The notes under the pieces are model-generated. The model was not told where the DNA came from and ran no database searches. It worked only from the letters and a program-made list of their open reading frames with translations. Positions 4,051 through 32,252 of a stretch of 64,000 nt of DNA are shown in pieces. Position 1 is the first letter of the stretch, and the number at the start of each line of letters is the position of its first letter. Origin of the DNA: Nitrogeniibacter mangrovi (lineage in GTDB: Bacteria; Pseudomonadota; Gammaproteobacteria; Burkholderiales; Rhodocyclaceae); assembly GCF_010983895.1 (NCBI RefSeq), contig NZ_CP048836.1:3534001-3598000 (forward strand), given 5' to 3'. Made by a program: the position numbers and the translations under genes.

Positions 4051-6144
4051 TTACTTGGCGTTAATCACTGCATCGGCGACGTTCTTCGGCGCCTCGGAAT
4101 AGTGCTTGAACTCCATGGAATACGTCGCCCGCCCCTGCGTCAGCGAGCGCAGAGAAGTGGCATAACCGAACATCTCGGCCAGCGGCACCTCAGCGCGAAT
4201 GCCTTTCATGTCCCCAGCAATGTCGTCCATGCCCTGGACGATGCCGCGGCGACCCGAGAGGTCACCCATCACGTTCCCCATGAATTCTTCCGGCGTCTCC
4301 ACTTCGACAGCCATCATCGGCTCAAGCAGCACCGGGCTGGCTTTGCGCATGGCATCTTTGAACGCCATCGAGCCGGCCATCTTGAAGGCGTTTTCGTTCG
4401 AGTCCACGTCGTGGTAGGAACCGTCGAACAGCGTCACCTTGACATCGACCACCGGGAAGCCGGCGAGCACACCATTCGGCAACGTATCCTGGATACCACG
4501 ATCCACGGCCGGGATGTATTCACGCGGCACGACACCACCCTTGATGGCATCGACGAATTCGTAGCCCTTGCCTGCCTCGTTCGGCTCCAGCTTGATCCAG
4601 ACGTGGCCGTACTGACCGCGACCGCCGGACTGCTTGACGAACTTGCCTTCCTGCTCGACGGTCGAACGAATGGCTTCGCGATAGGCCACCTGAGGAGCGC
4701 CGACATTGGCTTCGACGTTGAACTCACGCTTCATACGATCGACGATGATCTCGAGGTGCAATTCACCCATACCGGAGATGATGGTCTGACCGGACTCTTC
4801 GTCGGTACGCACGCGGAAGGACGGATCCTCCTGAGCCAGACGCGACAGGGCGATACCCATCTTTTCCTGATCGCTCTTGGTCTTCGGCTCGACGGCGACG
4901 TGAATCACCGGATCCGGGAACTCCATGCGCTCGAGAATGATCGGCGCCGAGGGATCGCACAGGGTTTCACCCGTCGTCACTTCCTTCAGGCCCACGGCCG
5001 CAGCGATGTCGCCGGCACGCACTTCCTTGATTTCCTGACGATCGTTGGCGTGCATCTGCAACAGACGGCCAATCCGCTCTTTCTTGACCTTGACGGAGTT
5101 GAGCACCGTATCGCCGGAATTCACGACACCGGAATAGACGCGAATGAAGGTCAGCTGACCCACGAACGGGTCGGTCATCAGCTTGAACGCCAGCGCCGAG
5201 AATTTCTCCTCGTCGCTCGACTTGCGCACCGCCTCGTTGCCATCGTCGTCAATGCCATGCACCGGCGGCACTTCCGTCGGATTGGGCATGAACTCGATGA
5301 CGGCGTCCAGCATACGCTGCACACCCTTGTTCTTGAACGCGGTACCACACAGCATCGGCTGAATCTCGCAAGCGATGGTGCGCTTGCGCAGGCCCGCAAC
5401 GATCTGCTCTTCGGTCAGCTCGCCACCCTCGAGGTAGGCATCCATCAGCTCTTCATCAGCCTCGGCAGCCGCCTCGACCATCTGCTCACGATACTCTTCG
5501 GCCTTGTCGGCCAGCTCCGCAGGAATGTCGACGTAGTCGAACTTGGCCCCCATGGAAGCCTCATCCCAGATGATGGCCTTCATCTTGATGAGGTCGACCA
5601 CCCCCTGGAAGTGCTCTTCCGCACCGATCGGCAGCACGACAGGCACCGGGTTGGCCTTCAGGCGCGTCTTCATCTGCTCGACGACCTTGTAGAAGTCGGC
5701 ACCCTGGCGATCCATCTTGTTCACGAACGCAAGGCGCGGCACCTTGTACTTGGTCGCCTGGCGCCACACCGTCTCGGACTGCGGCTGAACACCACCCACG
5801 GCGCAGTACACCATGCACGCCCCATCAAGCACGCGCATCGAGCGCTCCACCTCAATGGTGAAGTCCACGTGCCCCGGCGTGTCGATGATGTTGATGCGAT
5901 GCTCCGGCAGGGACAGATCCATACCCTTCCAGAAGCACGTCGTGGCCGCCGACGTAATCGTGATACCGCGCTCCTGCTCCTGCGCCATCCAGTCCATGGT
6001 GGCCACGCCATCATGCACTTCACCGATCTTGTGATTCACACCGGTGTAGAAAAGGATACGCTCGGTCGTCGTCGTCTTGCCGGCGTCGATGTGCGCGGAA
6101 ATACCGATATTGCGGTAGCGCTCAATGGGAGTTTTGCGGGCCAC
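4051..6144 (-). CDS. fusA: Elongation factor G
   Basis: EF-G is the GTPase of ribosomal translocation. The 697-residue product begins [22 protein letters not shown] and shows the G1 motif [10 protein letters not shown] (about residues 17-26), the DTPGHVDF G3 motif and the NKMD G4 motif, then domains II-V. Length is normal. It lies between rpsG and tuf. A strong hairpin plus T5 in the 104-nt gap after rpsG suggests that fusA-tuf expression is uncoupled in part from rpsLG. Confidence 0.98.
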
Positions 6145-6204
6145 GGTAGTTGTCCTGCCTAGTTAAATTGCACGAAATGCGCAATTTTCGAACCAATCGA
6201 TGAC

Positions 6205-6233
6205 AAAAAGTCGAGCCCCACCAAGGGCTCGAC
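6205..6233 (-). terminator. intrinsic terminator between rpsG and fusA
   Basis: A perfect 9-bp stem (6210-6218 with 6225-6233, loop TTGGTG on the minus strand) is followed directly by TTTTT on the minus strand, the standard rho-independent layout. As fusA follows 60 nt later in the same direction, it must act as a partial terminator, or fusA has its own promoter. Confidence 0.75.
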
Positions 6234-6248
6234 CCAAAGATGTACAGC

Positions 6249-6737
<489 letters not shown>

Positions 6738-24823: not shown

Positions 24824-25648
24824 ATGCGAGCCGCGATCGTGCCCGTGTTGCGTTTGCTGCTGGCCCAGGCGGCCGGCTGGCTGCTGCTGTTCGCCCTGCT
24901 CCGGCTCGGCGCCCCGGTGACCGGCCTTCCGCTGGCGCTCGTCCAGGGCACCCTGGCCGCCGCCGTGGCCCATCTGCTGCGCGCCGAACGCTGGTGGCTG
25001 GCGCTGCACCTGGGCTTCACGCCATTGATCTGGCTCGCGAGCCAACTGGCCATTGCACCGGGCTGGTATCTAGCCGCCTTCGTGGTGCTGGCCGTTTTCT
25101 ACTGGACCAGCTTTCGCTCCCGCGTGCCCCTGTTCCTCAGCAACCGGCGCACCGTGGACGCCCTCGCGGCGCTGCTGCCACGCGACGACGTCCGGCTACT
25201 CGACGCCGGCGCCGGCACCGGCTCGGCGCTGCGCCCGCTCGCGCGCCGCTTTCCCCGCGCCCACCTCACCGGCATCGAAACCGCCCCCGGCCCGTGGCTG
25301 ATCGGGCGCCTGCTGTGTGCCGGCCAGGCGAACCTGCGCTGGCTGCGCGGTGACTTCTGGGCGCACGACTGGGCACCCTACGACGTGGTCTACGTGTTCC
25401 TCTCGCCGGTGCCGATGCCCGAGGTGTGGCGCAAGGCCTGCGCCCAGATGCGCCCGGGCAGCCTGCTGGTGAGCAACAGCTTTGCGATCCCCGGGGTCGA
25501 GCCGGTGCGCACCGTCACCCCGCAACAGACCGGCGGGCGGCCCCTGTACCTCTACGAAATCGGTGCGCCGTGCACTGCCAAAAGCGGCGAAAAGGGAGAA
25601 AAAACCCGGTCACTTCCCGCCACGCCCCCGCGCGCATCGTCACCATAA
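24824..25648 (+). CDS. Membrane-anchored class I SAM-dependent methyltransferase
   Basis: The 274-residue product has a hydrophobic N-terminal half with about three to four membrane segments (residues 8-28, 35-55, 62-76, 78-97), then a Rossmann-fold methyltransferase domain with motif I LLDAGAGTGSALRPL (about residues 125-139) and a later acidic GIET motif. The substrate is unknown; the domain resembles small methyltransferases annotated only by fold. It lies 84 nt after the oxidoreductase gene and 43 nt before a ParA-like gene, all rightward. There is no sign that it belongs to either pathway. A short basic/polar tail follows the catalytic domain. Confidence 0.75.
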   Translation: MRAAIVPVLRLLLAQAAGWLLLFALLRLGAPVTGLPLALVQGTLAAAVAHLLRAERWWLALHLGFTPLIWLASQLAIAPGWYLAAFVVLAVFYWTSFRSRVPLFLSNRRTVDALAALLPRDDVRLLDAGAGTGSALRPLARRFPRAHLTGIETAPGPWLIGRLLCAGQANLRWLRGDFWAHDWAPYDVVYVFLSPVPMPEVWRKACAQMRPGSLLVSNSFAIPGVEPVRTVTPQQTGGRPLYLYEIGAPCTAKSGEKGEKTRSLPATPPRASSP

Positions 25649-25691
25649 TGGTCACCATGCGGCCACACCGCCGCGCACCGGAAACACCCCT

Positions 25692-26408
25692 ATGGCTGAC
25701 ATCATCTGCATCATCGGAAACAAGGGCGGCACCGGCAAGACCTCGCTGTCGCACATGCTCTGCCAGGGCCTGGGCCTGCTCGGCCAGCGCTCTGCCTGCG
25801 TGCTCACCGACACCGCGCGCGAACCGTTGCGGCCCGAAGGGCGGCGCTACGTGACGGCCGACGCCCGCACCCCCGAAGCCCTGGCCAAGGTCGCCGACAA
25901 GCTGCGCGCCCTGGACGGCTGGCTCGGCGTCATCGACGGCGGCGGCAACCGCCCCGAGGTGGACCGCAAGCTCTACGCCCTGGCCGACATCGTGCTGCTG
26001 CCGTTCCGCGAATCCCACGAGGACATCCGCACCGTGCTCGCCGATCTGGAACGCTTTCCGCGCGCCTATGCCCTGCCCTCCCAGTGGCCGACCAACCCTT
26101 GGGCGCGCGAGGCGGCGGACCGAAGCGTCGCCCAGCTGATGGGCGCCTACCGCCACCGCATCCTGCGGCCGGTCAACAGCCTGTCCGCATCCAAACTGCT
26201 GTTGCAGAGCGAGGTCCCGGATCAGCTGCCGACGCAGCTGGCCAACAGCTGCCGGCGGCTGGCGCGCCAGATGCTCGAGGTGCTGGAGATCGAATACGCC
26301 GATGTGATGGACGAGCCCGAATCGGGCACGATGGCGTCGGCGGCGGACAGCGAAGAAGGCCTTGCGCGCACGGACACCCTGGCGGCGCTCGCAGGCGGCA
26401 CCCACTGA
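25692..26408 (+). CDS. ParA/MinD-like P-loop ATPase, solitary
   Basis: The 238-residue protein opens with a deviant Walker A, GNKGGTGKTS (residues 9-18, signature lysine 11 and Walker lysine 16), which defines the ParA/MinD family of dimerising ATPases. The region where a catalytic aspartate normally precedes proline (switch II) reads VIDGGGNR near residue 80, so switch II is atypical. No HTH domain and no parB- or minE-like neighbour is present, so chromosome partition is not indicated. The C-terminus is polar and low in complexity. I selected the ATG at 25692 because the Walker motif then lies at the N-terminus, as in short ParAs. The cargo is unknown. Confidence 0.75.
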   Translation: MADIICIIGNKGGTGKTSLSHMLCQGLGLLGQRSACVLTDTAREPLRPEGRRYVTADARTPEALAKVADKLRALDGWLGVIDGGGNRPEVDRKLYALADIVLLPFRESHEDIRTVLADLERFPRAYALPSQWPTNPWAREAADRSVAQLMGAYRHRILRPVNSLSASKLLLQSEVPDQLPTQLANSCRRLARQMLEVLEIEYADVMDEPESGTMASAADSEEGLARTDTLAALAGGTH

Positions 26409-26455: not shown

Positions 26456-27085
26456 CTACAGCCGTGCCCCGTGGCGGGTGATGACCAGCACTGCCTGGGC
26501 GCGGTTGGTCACGTTGAGAGCACGGAAGATCGCCGACATGTGCACCTTCACGGTGCCCTCCGACAACCCGAGCAGATCGGCGATTTCACGGTTGGTCTTG
26601 CCCTGGGCCAGCAGCTCCATGACCCGCGTCTGCGCCGTGGTCAGACCGAAACGTTCCTGGATCGGCGCGCCCCCCCGGCGACGGGCACTGCCCGCCTCCT
26701 CCTTGGGCGTGTAGATGCCACCATCGAGCACGATGCGGATCGCATCGAGCAGTTCCTCGCTTGAGCAGGACTTGGGCACGAAACCGGAGGCGCCGGATTT
26801 CATCGCGCGCTGGATCGACGCGCTGTCGTCCAGGGCCGAGACGACGATGGCCGGCAATTCCGGGAAGCGCTTGGCGAGAATCCCGAGCAGCGAAAAACCG
26901 TTCATGTCCGGCAGCATGAGATCGATGACGGCCAGGTCGCGATCCGGATTGCGCTCCAGCTCCTCGAGGGCCTCGTCCGCCGTCTTGACGCCGACGCATT
27001 CGACCTGCTCGTCCAGGCGCTGCAGGGTCTGCGCCATGGCTTCACGCACCAGCACGTGGTCCTCGACCACCAGAATTCTCGTCAC
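26456..27085 (-). CDS. NarL/FixJ-type response regulator
   Basis: This two-component transcription factor has a receiver domain (about residues 2-120) with the acidic pair E8-D9, phospho-acceptor D55 (VIDLMLPD) and conserved lysine (FVPKS), then a LuxR-type HTH (about residues 142-205, LTTAQTRVMELLAQGKTNREIA). I prefer the GTG at 27085 (209 residues): GGAGG lies 7 nt upstream and the receiver begins immediately. The longest frame starts at ATG 27157 and adds a 24-residue Ala/Thr-rich stretch without a good ribosome binding site. It is divergent from the TonB receptor - binding protein - hybrid kinase genes, and the kinase at 30,324 is its likely partner (inference). Confidence 0.88.
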   Translation of the reverse strand: MTRILVVEDHVLVREAMAQTLQRLDEQVECVGVKTADEALEELERNPDRDLAVIDLMLPDMNGFSLLGILAKRFPELPAIVVSALDDSASIQRAMKSGASGFVPKSCSSEELLDAIRIVLDGGIYTPKEEAGSARRRGGAPIQERFGLTTAQTRVMELLAQGKTNREIADLLGLSEGTVKVHMSAIFRALNVTNRAQAVLVITRHGARL

Positions 27086-27368
27086 GACACCGCCTCCGAT
27101 CAATTCGGCGTGCTGCGAAGGGGTGGGTGCAGCAGCTGTCAGATTCATCGCATTCATTCCGAAAGCATAGCACGACAGCCGTTCCGACCGCGTACCACGT
27201 CATCACTCCGATACCGGCATGTACACAGAAACCGAGCATACCTGAGCGCGGCAAAAATGACATCGGAAAAGTCCGCGCCGCGGGGGCGATGAGACACCGG
27301 TCCCGACGCTGGTTTCACGGCGCGATCCGGGCAACAATGCAACGGTTCGAAACCGCTCCGCCGCCCTT

Positions 27369-29390
27369 ATGCGACAACGACTCCTGCCCCATCTCGCGCT
27401 GATCGGCATCGGCTGCGCCGGCCCGGTATTCGCCGCCGCGCCGGTCACCTCGGAACTGGCCCTGTTCGGCGACGTCCCAGTGGTCCTTTCCGCGGCCCGT
27501 CTGATCCAGCCACTCAACGACGCCCCGGGCGCGGTCACCGTGATCGACCGCGACATGATCCGCGCCTCGGGCGCGCGCGATGTGGCCGAACTGCTGCGCT
27601 TCGTGCCCGGCATCCAGATCGGTCGCGCCAACGGCGCCACGCCGCTGACCAGCTATCACGGCCTGTCGGACGACGCCCCCCGACGCATGCTGGTCCGGGT
27701 GGACGGCCGCTCGGCCTATTCGCCCTATTTCGTCAGCGGGATCGAGTGGGCCAAGATCAGCGTGGACATCGACGACATCGAACGCATCGAGGTGTTCCGC
27801 GGCACCAACGCCGCCGCCTACGGCAGCAACGCCTTCCTCGGCGTTGTGAACATCATCACCCGGCCGGCGGCGGAAACGCCGCGCCTGCGCGCCCGCATCA
27901 CCGAAGGGGCGAACGGCCTCCACGAGCGCATGGTGTCGATACGCCAGCGACTCGGGGACGCCACCGCGCGCCTGACCCTCGGTCAGCAACGCGAAGACGG
28001 CCTCGACGGCCTCAACGACAGCTACCGACATCAGCGCGCCGACGCCCGCGTGGACTGGCAGCTCGGTGCCCTGGACACCGTGGAGTTCCATTTCGGCTTC
28101 GTGGACACCCGCGCCGGCAAGGGTGTCGCCGACAGCGTGACCGACCCCGAGCGCACCGTCGACAGCTACACCGGTTTCGGCGAAGTCCGCTGGCGGCGCC
28201 AGCTGAACACCGACGACGAGATCAAGCTCACCTATTTCCACCAGGAGGAACGGGCCGAGGACCCGGGCTTCTTCATCCCCTCCCTGTCGTCCTACCTGGG
28301 CGTGCCATCCGCGGTGCTGCTGGCGGTCTACGGCATTCCCGTCGGCACCTACGTCGATGGTGCCCAGCACACCCGTGCCCTGCGCGACGATCTGGAATTC
28401 GAGCACCTGATCCATCCGGGGCCGGACGACCGCATCGTGTGGGGCGCGGGCCTGCGCAGCGACCGGGTCGCCTCGCAACGCGTCTTCAACACCCGCGACG
28501 ACATCGACATCCGCAACACGCGCCTGTTCGCCAACCTGGAGCATCGCCAGGGCCGCGCCTGGACCTTCAACGCTGGCGCCCTGCTCGAAGACACCGACGC
28601 CGCCGGCCCCCGCTTCTCGCCCCGACTGGCCGCGAACCTGCACCTGACCGACCGCACCACCGCCCGGGCCGCGTGGAGCCGCGGCTACCGCAACCTCACG
28701 CCGTTCGAACGCCGGGCCGACGTGCGCTATGCCGAAGCCCTCGGCGGCGTCGTGCTGTTCCAGTCCTTCCAGCCTTCGGGCGAGTTGCCGCCGGAACGGG
28801 TCACCACGCGGGAACTGGGCCTGCGGCATGAATCGGCCGACCACCAGAGCAACATCGACCTGCGTGTCTATGTCGAACAGATCCGGGACATGATCCGCCG
28901 CGACACCGCCACCAGCAACATCGTCCCCGCTCCGCCGCTGAACCACGACGGCGAGGCACCGAAATACATCGGCGGCGGCGCAGCCGACATTCATGGCACC
29001 GAACTGTCATTTCTATATCGTTCGACACATGACACATGGATCGGGGGGCACTATGCTTACACCCATTTGAAAAGCAACGATCCGCCCGCCGAACTCAGTG
29101 CCCCACACCATGCCTTTGCCTTATTCGCGTCGATCCGGCTGCCTCACGACTGGCAGATGAGTGTCCAGCATGGATTCGTGGGGGGCATGAGCTGGTACGA
29201 CAGCGATCCGGAAGATACGGTCCGCCCCTATCACTACAGCAGTGCCCGCATTGCCAAACGCTGGCGCGCCGGCGTCTCCAGCGCCGAGCTGGCGGTGGGC
29301 ATGGACCGGATCGGGGGCGGCGTCAGCGACTTCCACCAGGATCTCGTCCGCCCGCCCGAGGGCTACGTCACCCTCAGGCTGACCTACTGA
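27369..29390 (+). CDS. TonB-dependent outer-membrane receptor
   Basis: The 673-residue protein has a signal peptide (cleavage near residue 23, after PVFAA), a plug domain (about residues 45-160, with DAPGAVTVIDRDMIRASGA and GSNAFLGVVNIITR signatures) and a C-terminal 22-strand barrel ending in the aromatic residue of VTLRLTY. Such receptors import siderophores, cobalamin, metals or sugars. The ligand is not evident, and no cobalamin riboswitch or Fur box was recognised upstream. The start ATG at 27369 lacks a strong Shine-Dalgarno. It is the first gene of a rightward set with a solitary periplasmic binding protein 13 nt downstream and a hybrid kinase, so it may deliver or sense the ligand of that system. 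Confidence 0.9.
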   Translation: MRQRLLPHLALIGIGCAGPVFAAAPVTSELALFGDVPVVLSAARLIQPLNDAPGAVTVIDRDMIRASGARDVAELLRFVPGIQIGRANGATPLTSYHGLSDDAPRRMLVRVDGRSAYSPYFVSGIEWAKISVDIDDIERIEVFRGTNAAAYGSNAFLGVVNIITRPAAETPRLRARITEGANGLHERMVSIRQRLGDATARLTLGQQREDGLDGLNDSYRHQRADARVDWQLGALDTVEFHFGFVDTRAGKGVADSVTDPERTVDSYTGFGEVRWRRQLNTDDEIKLTYFHQEERAEDPGFFIPSLSSYLGVPSAVLLAVYGIPVGTYVDGAQHTRALRDDLEFEHLIHPGPDDRIVWGAGLRSDRVASQRVFNTRDDIDIRNTRLFANLEHRQGRAWTFNAGALLEDTDAAGPRFSPRLAANLHLTDRTTARAAWSRGYRNLTPFERRADVRYAEALGGVVLFQSFQPSGELPPERVTTRELGLRHESADHQSNIDLRVYVEQIRDMIRRDTATSNIVPAPPLNHDGEAPKYIGGGAADIHGTELSFLYRSTHDTWIGGHYAYTHLKSNDPPAELSAPHHAFALFASIRLPHDWQMSVQHGFVGGMSWYDSDPEDTVRPYHYSSARIAKRWRAGVSSAELAVGMDRIGGGVSDFHQDLVRPPEGYVTLRLTY

Positions 29391-29403
29391 CCCCGCCGCC
29401 CGG

Positions 29404-30327
29404 ATGCGTCGCGCCTGGATCCGCCTCCTGCTGCTCTTGGCCACCCTGACGGGTGCGATGCCCTATGCCCGGGCCGCGGACACCCTGCTGGTGCTCAGCG
29501 ACGGCGCCCCCGCCTACGAGCAGACCGCGCGGCGCATCAAGGACCGGCTGGCCGAATCGCGCCCGTCGGTGTCGGTCGAATCGGTACCCATCGCGCAGAT
29601 CACCTCGGCGCTGCTCGCCCGCGCCACCCTGGTCGTCACCATTGGCACCCGGGCCGCCGAAGTCGTGGTCGGACGCCACCAGCCCGACCGGCTCATCTGT
29701 GCGCTGCTGACCCACCAGACCTACACCCGCCTGCCCCGCGTGCGCTCAGGGGCGCAGCGCAGCGCGGTGTACATCGACCAGCCGGCCTCGCGCCAGCTGG
29801 CGCTGATCCGCGCCGCGCTGCCCGGCACCGAACGCATCGCCATGGTGTTCAGTGCCGCCTCACGGACCTACGTGGACGACATGCAAACGGTCGCCAACGA
29901 CGCTGGCATCACCCTCCGGAGCGCCCTGATCGACGAGGACACGCCGCTGTACAACGCCCTGCGGGACGTGCTCGATCCCGACGGCGTGCTGGTGGCCGTA
30001 CCCGACACCTCGGTCTACAACAACTTCACCATCCAGAACATTCTGCTGACCGCCTACCGTGAGCGCACGCCGGTGATCGGCTTCTCGCCTGCCTATGTAC
30101 GCGCCGGTGCCATCCTGGCGGTGTATTCGACCCCCGAGCAGGTCGGTGACCAGGTCGCGCGGGTGGTCGACTCCGCGCTATCGGGCAACCCGCTGCCGGC
30201 ACCGGCCTATCCGGTTCGCTTCTCGGTCAGCACCAACCCGCACGTGGCGCGCTCGCTCTCGCTCGAACTGCCGACGCCGGGTGCGCTCGAAGCGTCGATC
30301 CGGCGCACGGAAGGCGACCAGCCATGA
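29404..30327 (+). CDS. Periplasmic binding protein, ABC_sub_bind (TrpX-like) family
   Basis: The 307-residue protein has a signal peptide (about residues 1-25, ending YARAA) and the two-lobed fold of the ABC_sub_bind family, whose better known members bind tryptophan or related small molecules. Notable is the absence of any permease or ATPase gene nearby. Instead its stop codon overlaps the start of a hybrid histidine kinase (ATGA), implying coupled translation and a role as sensory ligand-binding partner of that kinase rather than transport (inference). It lies 13 nt after the TonB-dependent receptor gene. The ligand cannot be told from sequence. Confidence 0.8.
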   Translation: MRRAWIRLLLLLATLTGAMPYARAADTLLVLSDGAPAYEQTARRIKDRLAESRPSVSVESVPIAQITSALLARATLVVTIGTRAAEVVVGRHQPDRLICALLTHQTYTRLPRVRSGAQRSAVYIDQPASRQLALIRAALPGTERIAMVFSAASRTYVDDMQTVANDAGITLRSALIDEDTPLYNALRDVLDPDGVLVAVPDTSVYNNFTIQNILLTAYRERTPVIGFSPAYVRAGAILAVYSTPEQVGDQVARVVDSALSGNPLPAPAYPVRFSVSTNPHVARSLSLELPTPGALEASIRRTEGDQP

Positions 30328-32252
30328 TTCGTAATTGGGGAGTGCGCGCCCGGGTGGTGCTGGTGGCGGTGGCGCCGGCCATCGTGCTCGGCGCGTTCAT
30401 GATCGCCTACTTCACCCACCTGCGTCTGGCCGATCTGGAGCAAGCCTACTCCGACCGTGGCCGTGCCCTTGCCCGCCAGGTCGCCACCGCCACCGAGTAC
30501 GCGGTGTTCGCCAACAACATCGAGGACCTGCAACGCCTGCTCGACACGTCCCTGCGCGAAGAAGGCGTGCTCGGCGTCCTCGCCGTCGATGCCAGTGGCC
30601 GCGCCCTGGCCCGCGCCGGTCGCGTCGAACCGCCCCCAGCCTCCGCGCCGGTAAGCGCCGCCTCGCAGCAGGGGCTCGCGCAGACGGTCCGCTTCTTCGA
30701 GCCGATCGAGCCGGTCCGCCTCAATATCGGCGAATCCGGCTTCGACAATGGCACCAGCCTGGCCCAGCACCCCCTCGGCGGGATCATCATCGACATCTCC
30801 AACACCCGGCTCAACGAGCAACGCGACCAACTCCTCAATGCCGGCGCCAGCGCCCTGCTGCTGGTCCTGATCGGCAGCGTGCTGCTGGCCATCCGCATGA
30901 GCCAGGGGGTCAGCGAGCCGATCCGCGACGTGGCGCGCATCGTCGCGCGCATCGGCGCCGGCCACCTCCACGACCGCGTCCGGGTGTCCGGCGGCGGCAG
31001 CCTGCAACGGCTCGGCCAGGGGGTGAACGAGATGGCCGAACGGCTCCAGTCGGCCCATCGGGAAATGATGCAGCGGATCGACGAGGCCACTGCCGAGTTG
31101 CGCAACCGCACCGACGAGGCGGAACGGGCGGACATGGCCAAGTCGCGCTTCCTTGCCGCGGCCAGCCACGACCTGCGCCAGCCCATGCACGCGCTAGGGC
31201 TGTTCATCGCCGAACTGGCGGAGCATCCCCACCCGCCCGAGACCCATCGCCTGGTGCGCCAGATCCAGGCCTCCGCCGAGGCCATGGAGAATCTGCTCGA
31301 CTCCCTGCTCGACATCTCGCGCCTCGATGCCGGCGCCCTCGAACCCAAGATCGTGGCCAGCCCGCTGCAGCCGATCCTCGACCGCATCGACAACGACTTC
31401 CAGATCTGGGCCGAGGAGCGCGGTCTGCGCCTGCGGGTCCGCCCCTGCGCCGCCTGGATCCGCACCGACCCGCTACTGTTCGAACGCATCCTCTCCAACC
31501 TGGTCAGCAACGCCATCCGCTACACCCCCAGGGGCACCATCCTCATCGCCTGCCGCCCCGACGGCGACCAGCTGCGCGTCGAGGTGCGCGACAGCGGCAA
31601 GGGCATCGACACCGACAAGCAGGAAGTGATCTTTCAGGAGTTCGTCCAGCTCGACAATCCGGAACGGGCCCGCACCAAGGGGCTCGGCCTCGGCCTGGCC
31701 ATCGTGCGCCGCCTCACCCTGCTGCTCGGGCACACCCTCATGCTGCGCTCACGGCCGGGCCACGGCTCCGTGTTCGGGGTGCGCGTCGAGCGCTGCGCGC
31801 CGCAGACCGAGCCGGACATCGCGCCGGCCGAGCGCCCGCCCGGCACCCTCGACGGCACCCGCGTCCTCGTGGTGGACGACGATCCGCTCGCGCTCGCCAG
31901 CCTCGACAGCCTGCTGGCCGCCTGGGGCTGCGAGGTCACCGCCGCCAGTTCCCTCGGCGAGGCCCTCGCCCTCCTCGACCCGACCCGTCCGCCCGAGGTG
32001 CTCATCACCGACTATCGCCTCCAGGGCCACCAGACCGGGCTGGAGGTGATCGAGCGCATCGCGGCCCTGGTGGGCTACCGCCTGCGCAGCATCCTCATCA
32101 CCGGCGACACCGGCAGCGACGTCATCAACCGCGCGCGCGCCGCCAGCCTCCCCATCCTGCACAAGCCGGTCCGCCCGGCCAAGCTGCGGGCGGTCATGCA
32201 ACGCCTGCTCAGCCAGCGTGACGAAGAGACCGAAACGGAGAAGCGCGGCTGA
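30324..32252 (+). CDS. Hybrid sensor histidine kinase/response regulator
   Basis: The 642-residue inner-membrane protein has a first membrane segment (about residues 10-31), a periplasmic domain of roughly 140 residues, a second segment (about 175-193), a HAMP linker, a coiled-coil, a HisKA box with phospho-acceptor H282 (SHDLRQP), a HATPase domain with N box (LVSNAIRYTP) and G boxes (DSGKGID, GLGLGLAIV), and a C-terminal receiver with D563 (ITDYRL). The internal receiver suggests a phosphorelay or feedback control. The start overlaps the upstream binding-protein gene by 4 nt. The divergent NarL-type regulator at 26,456 is the obvious output partner. The stimulus is unknown, but the gene order points to a ligand held by the binding protein. 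Confidence 0.88.
   Translation: MIRNWGVRARVVLVAVAPAIVLGAFMIAYFTHLRLADLEQAYSDRGRALARQVATATEYAVFANNIEDLQRLLDTSLREEGVLGVLAVDASGRALARAGRVEPPPASAPVSAASQQGLAQTVRFFEPIEPVRLNIGESGFDNGTSLAQHPLGGIIIDISNTRLNEQRDQLLNAGASALLLVLIGSVLLAIRMSQGVSEPIRDVARIVARIGAGHLHDRVRVSGGGSLQRLGQGVNEMAERLQSAHREMMQRIDEATAELRNRTDEAERADMAKSRFLAAASHDLRQPMHALGLFIAELAEHPHPPETHRLVRQIQASAEAMENLLDSLLDISRLDAGALEPKIVASPLQPILDRIDNDFQIWAEERGLRLRVRPCAAWIRTDPLLFERILSNLVSNAIRYTPRGTILIACRPDGDQLRVEVRDSGKGIDTDKQEVIFQEFVQLDNPERARTKGLGLGLAIVRRLTLLLGHTLMLRSRPGHGSVFGVRVERCAPQTEPDIAPAERPPGTLDGTRVLVVDDDPLALASLDSLLAAWGCEVTAASSLGEALALLDPTRPPEVLITDYRLQGHQTGLEVIERIAALVGYRLRSILITGDTGSDVINRARAASLPILHKPVRPAKLRAVMQRLLSQRDEETETEKRG

Follow-up and report, generated by a model that had tools for sequence, protein, structure and literature searches.

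In LuxP-LuxQ, TorT-TorS and NspS-MbaA, which lack a permease, a soluble periplasmic binding protein (SBP) is combined with a kinase or a c-di-GMP enzyme that spans the membrane. The YfiBNR system consists of the lipoprotein YfiB, the DUF4154 protein YfiR and YfiN, a diguanylate cyclase with a CHASE8 domain. Stimulation of receptors by SBPs has been reviewed as a mechanism (PMC9602780), and YfiBNR was published as a periplasmic repressor system (PMC2837407). The locus described here lies in a window of 64,000 nucleotides from Nitrogeniibacter mangrovi, by which we mean the whole stretch of DNA analysed. It resembles the first group in that its SBP gene adjoins that of a receptor with a periplasmic domain, no permease is present and the SBP fold matches LuxP; in contrast to these systems, however, it combines a PF04392 SBP and an sCache_4 domain with a dedicated TonB-dependent receptor (TBDR) and interchangeable outputs. 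With YfiBNR it shares the division into an outer-membrane part, a periplasmic protein and an inner-membrane transducer, although these are a TBDR, a PF04392 protein and an sCache_4 sensor, and the pairing of DUF4154 with CHASE8 is absent. Like FecA-FecR-FecI, it ties a TBDR to signalling, but the receptor has no N-terminal signalling domain, and neither FecR nor a sigma factor occurs among the scanned neighbours. By analogy, we file the cassette as an SBP-stimulated receptor with a dedicated TBDR added. Open-licence papers, to which our literature search was confined, gave no description of such a cassette, whether by gene set, by PF04392 with GGDEF, by DUF4154 with TonB, or under PA1612. The locus comprises the following features (RR, response regulator; HK, histidine kinase).

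26456–27157, minus strand: NarL/LuxR-type RR, 233 aa (open reading frame list and Pfam)
27158–27368, no strand: divergent intergenic region between RR and TBDR, 211 nt (open reading frame coordinates)
27369–29390, plus strand: TBDR, 673 aa (open reading frame list and Pfam)
29404–30327, plus strand: periplasmic SBP, PF04392, 307 aa (open reading frame list and Pfam)
30324–32252, plus strand: hybrid HK, 642 aa (open reading frame list and Pfam)

Gene order, strands and distances agree with the preliminary description of this DNA: the TBDR and SBP genes are separated by 13 nt (29391–29403), the SBP stop and the kinase start overlap by 4 nt, and RR and TBDR genes diverge. Both promoters are expected in the region between the latter, where no consensus promoter, convincing terminator or clear operator was seen. 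That a permease and an ATPase are missing, as had also been claimed, held true in Pfam for the scanned neighbours, so that of the parts of an ABC importer the window has the PF04392 periplasmic protein and neither a linked permease nor a linked ABC ATPase. ParA-like and PhaM genes flank the locus. The gene adjoining the RR (25548–26408) encodes a ParA/MinD-like P-loop protein with weak Pfam matches only.

The SBP matches ABC_sub_bind (PF04392, E 2e-15) and carries a Sec-type signal peptide; no lipobox was seen. Its AlphaFold model (pLDDT 95.3) shows a two-lobed binding-protein fold, and its closest PDB entries are 3lft (with L-Trp), 3lkv and 6hni, followed by LuxP in complex with LuxQ. The window SBP thus has the Pfam family and fold of the TrpX-type ABC binding proteins (3lft, 3lkv, 6hni) but forms a separate clade, lacks permease and ATPase, and has replaced the ligand-region motifs: TGxSD and DN, common to these amino-acid binders, are YLDQP and PDP in the window family. 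From this replacement it follows that its ligand likely differs from that of the solved amino-acid binders. The motifs of the SBP are strongly conserved among its relatives. It belongs to no known NCBIfam equivalog and matches TrpX weakly only.

In the kinase, Pfam places a periplasmic sCache_4 domain (residues 34–163) between two transmembrane segments (5–33 and 169–197), followed by HAMP, HisKA, HATPase and REC. The catalytic residues are intact (His282 in HisKA, Asp563 and Lys614 in REC). Residues 1–262, modelled at pLDDT 89, form a long helix and a sheet of the Cache-type sensor form, with WalK, LapD-type and DctB/CitA sensor domains as nearest PDB matches. The C-terminal part aligns with NF041832 (NahK/ErcS) over its full length (1–370 of 370) at 373 bits, where the cut-off is 400; by this curated score, the kinase is a near relative of the NahK/ErcS family and not a member. 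The TBDR has a signal peptide, a TonB-box-like VPVVLSA, plug and barrel, and Pfam finds no N-terminal STN signalling domain. It scores highest in its genome with the profile of the triad TBDRs (752 bits, runner-up 502); the closest solved structure by sequence, the colicin I receptor CirA, is distant. The RR consists of Response_reg and the GerE helix-turn-helix and is hence of NarL/LuxR type, with Asp79 and Lys129 intact.

To place the locus among its relatives, we rely on an SBP search in 300 genomes of the order, 78 of which had a match at E<=1e-5; the 62 places at E<1e-30 were fetched with their flanks (loci L033–L094). An sCache_4 transducer lies downstream on the same strand in 61 of these 62 relatives, the arrangement of an SBP-stimulated receptor, and this adjacency of SBP and sensor exceeds chance. 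The 4-nt overlap of both genes recurs in 44/62. A TBDR is found directly upstream of the SBP in 47/62 and within two genes in 52/62; the other 10 have none in the fetched stretch, some of which stop at contig edges, and there the receptor is therefore dispensable or unlinked. The preliminary description had named two outcomes that would speak against it, a fixed permease or ATPase partner of the SBP and absence of the genes from related genomes, and neither came about for the three-gene core. It had, however, counted the RR as part of a four-gene set. Of the 16 kinase-type loci other than that of the window, only three (L037, L075, L083) have an RR homologue (38%) nearby, and no GGDEF locus among the relatives has one at the same score. 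We hence rejected the RR as a fixed member; it is an optional neighbour of the core, although in the window itself it is a likely partner of the kinase. The earlier proposal of a periplasmic ligand sensor is supported in its transporterless form, with the SBP coupled to the kinase and the TBDR included in the unit, but not as an exact set of four. The exchange of output domains, a second triad in the host genome and the extension of the module to Pseudomonas, all described below, go beyond that proposal.

Some loci deserve separate mention. The SBP neighbour at L094 is a DEAD-box gene, so this locus was dropped as a transducer locus, and our sensor profile includes this one DEAD-box row. At L033, L044, L045, L047, L057 and L073 an SBP-GGDEF pair stands with no TBDR in the fetched stretch; at L044 and L045 it adjoins genes for a methyltransferase, RNase H and an exonuclease-domain protein, and ExbB, ExbD or TonB, considered as upstream genes of TBDR-less loci, were ruled out by this identification. 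In L081, an SCO1/SenC gene (5938–6528) lies directly 5′ of the SBP-GGDEF pair, and a convergent TBDR gene follows downstream. L230 (genome G452) has a TBDR-SBP pair without an adjacent sensor; genes for prephenate dehydratase and for a NarL-type regulator lie in its vicinity.

The relatives join the input of receptor, SBP, sCache_4 and HAMP to GGDEF, GGDEF-EAL or other kinases. Among the 63 downstream proteins including that of the window, Pfam found sCache_4 in 62 (the sole exception being the L094 protein), HAMP in 60, GGDEF in 44, EAL in 27, HATPase in 18, HisKA in 17 and REC in 17. The outputs of the 61 sCache_4 transducers are GGDEF in 44, a hybrid kinase in 16 and HATPase only in one, i.e., c-di-GMP enzymes are commoner than kinases. 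In a tree of 111 SBPs, built by a quick maximum-likelihood method and with some long branches, the output labels, which are taken from sequence motifs, require 11 changes for HK and 13 for GGDEF, and well-supported branches force at least five and at least seven changes, respectively. One recent switch separates L036 and L061 (GGDEF) from L049, L051 and L054 (HK). As the same input is found on various outputs, the output domain is interchangeable, and it is the input that is conserved as a unit.

A profile search of 398 genomes of the phylum extended the set of relatives to other classes and families. Most of the strong matches there have the triad or an SBP-sensor pair, and the same gene order and overlap recur across several families and classes. 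Scanning genome contigs with a single protein or with the wide alignment A1 gave nothing, and the Pseudomonas alignment gave matches; a plasmid search yielded two weak Massilia matches. Five consecutive PF04392-like genes occur in L110 (3544–10513) and also in L108; in L110 the gene of a sensor-like protein comes next. In Pseudomonas, TBDR, SBP and kinase stand together with a single kinase reading frame in 77 of 80 named loci, or in 79 if two split kinases are counted; sCache_4, HAMP, HisKA, HATPase and REC were confirmed by Pfam in one of them. This triad sits between gpsA and fabA-fabB (L208, L223–L225, L245). The receiver of its kinase shares 73% identity with the solved receiver of PA1611 (7c1j), and in the 6.6 Mb genome G679, which retains the complete triad, the receiver is 96% identical to that of PA1611. 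A PA1612-PA1611 operon upstream of fabAB has been described (PMC3462791). On these sequence grounds we identify the Pseudomonas kinase as the PA1611 orthologue; PA1613 is probably the TBDR and PA1612 the SBP, because the triad order is kept at the gpsA/fabAB locus and in G679. PA1611 (PMC3462791, PMC7467158, PMC4866733) is GacS-like and reportedly feeds HptB and binds RetS; that it opposes RetS within the Gac/Rsm network is reported in PMC4866733. The open-licence papers gave no description of its input, and those parts of the PA1611 literature that we considered make no mention of its neighbours in this role. Unlike its Pseudomonas relatives, the window kinase does not qualify as a PA1611 orthologue, given its ParA-like and PhaM flanks and its NahK/ErcS-like C-terminal half; it also differs from PA1611 in the NarL-type regulator nearby.

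We consider it probable that the locus is a two-membrane ligand-sensing cassette, in which the TBDR would admit a ligand, the SBP would bind it and dock on sCache_4, and the output would thereby be switched. The ligand that the TBDR may bring into the periplasm would be scarce or bulky. Since the SBP has no permease partner here, we propose that it delivers the ligand as a signal, and docking on the kinase sCache_4 domain is suggested by the near-obligate adjacency, the gene overlap and the likeness to the LuxP fold. Movement could then pass through the second transmembrane segment to HAMP and on to HisKA, HATPase and REC, a domain order that is itself observed. In N. mangrovi, the divergent NarL-type RR might be the transcriptional output. 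The two triads of the host genome and the Pseudomonas loci also favour this reading. Against it stand the 10 loci with no TBDR in the fetched stretch, the rarely linked RR and the TBDR-SBP pair of L230, and the SBP might still serve a permease encoded elsewhere.

The SBP could alternatively be an adaptor of the YfiR type that contacts the transducer directly to repress or activate it; its cleft would then hold no small ligand, and the TBDR or the state of the envelope would control the SBP. Besides the precedent of the periplasmic repressor in YfiBNR (PMC2837407), a further cluster of the host genome brings this to mind. The genome has only two PF04392 proteins, both inside TBDR-SBP-sCache_4 triads, and in addition a YfiR cluster:

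G000:C1:414708–425190 (L112): second triad, with a TBDR of 704 aa, an SBP of 322 aa and a transducer of 1501 aa
L247:1284–11057: third cluster, with TBDR, TBDR, YfiR (DUF4154) and CHASE8 hybrid kinase, then a REC-PAS-GGDEF-EAL protein

The 1501-aa transducer reads sCache_4-HAMP-HisKA-HATPase-REC-Hpt-GGDEF-EAL. The YfiR-CHASE8 cluster has two related TBDRs, and such a TBDR adjoins 19 of 28 sampled DUF4154 loci of the order, most of them with HK or GGDEF genes. Yet the SBP keeps both lobes of its fold, and its motifs are strongly conserved, which a pure adaptor would hardly require; we regard this reading as unlikely. That the SBP instead serves an unlinked ABC permease, with the kinase merely regulating uptake genes, seems highly improbable to us: PF04392 is a family of ABC substrate-binding proteins, and six relatives (L104–L107, L109, L111) do lie beside ABC ATPase signatures, but these six form one clade of their own with full support. 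Near the 62 relatives, an ABC signature was seen only at L043, as an unchecked motif match, and at L054, inside the TBDR itself; moreover, through all switches of output the SBP stays with the sensor and never with a permease. Finally, if the genes were neighbours by chance, or in a loose arrangement that serves no joint function, this could account for the loose linkage of the RR and the lack of a TBDR at some loci. Such a reading is scarcely credible, though, against the same order and overlap across several families and classes, the two triads in one host and the Pseudomonas loci, and for SBP and sensor it is already refuted.

Beyond the ligand-sensing cassette itself, we may speculate, tentatively and at somewhat less than even confidence, about a general class of two-membrane receptors. 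It would combine a TBDR devoid of a signalling domain with an exchangeable adaptor, either a PF04392 SBP with sCache_4 or YfiR with CHASE8, and with exchangeable outputs that include the PA1611 branch of Gac/Rsm, and it would sense an exogenous ligand pumped in by TonB. The cassette itself makes probable signal receptors of a family, PF04392, that is annotated as ABC substrate-binding proteins, and it would link TonB-dependent uptake with control by c-di-GMP and phosphorelay. PA1611, the opponent of RetS in the lifestyle switch of the Gac/Rsm network, gains a concrete and testable candidate input.
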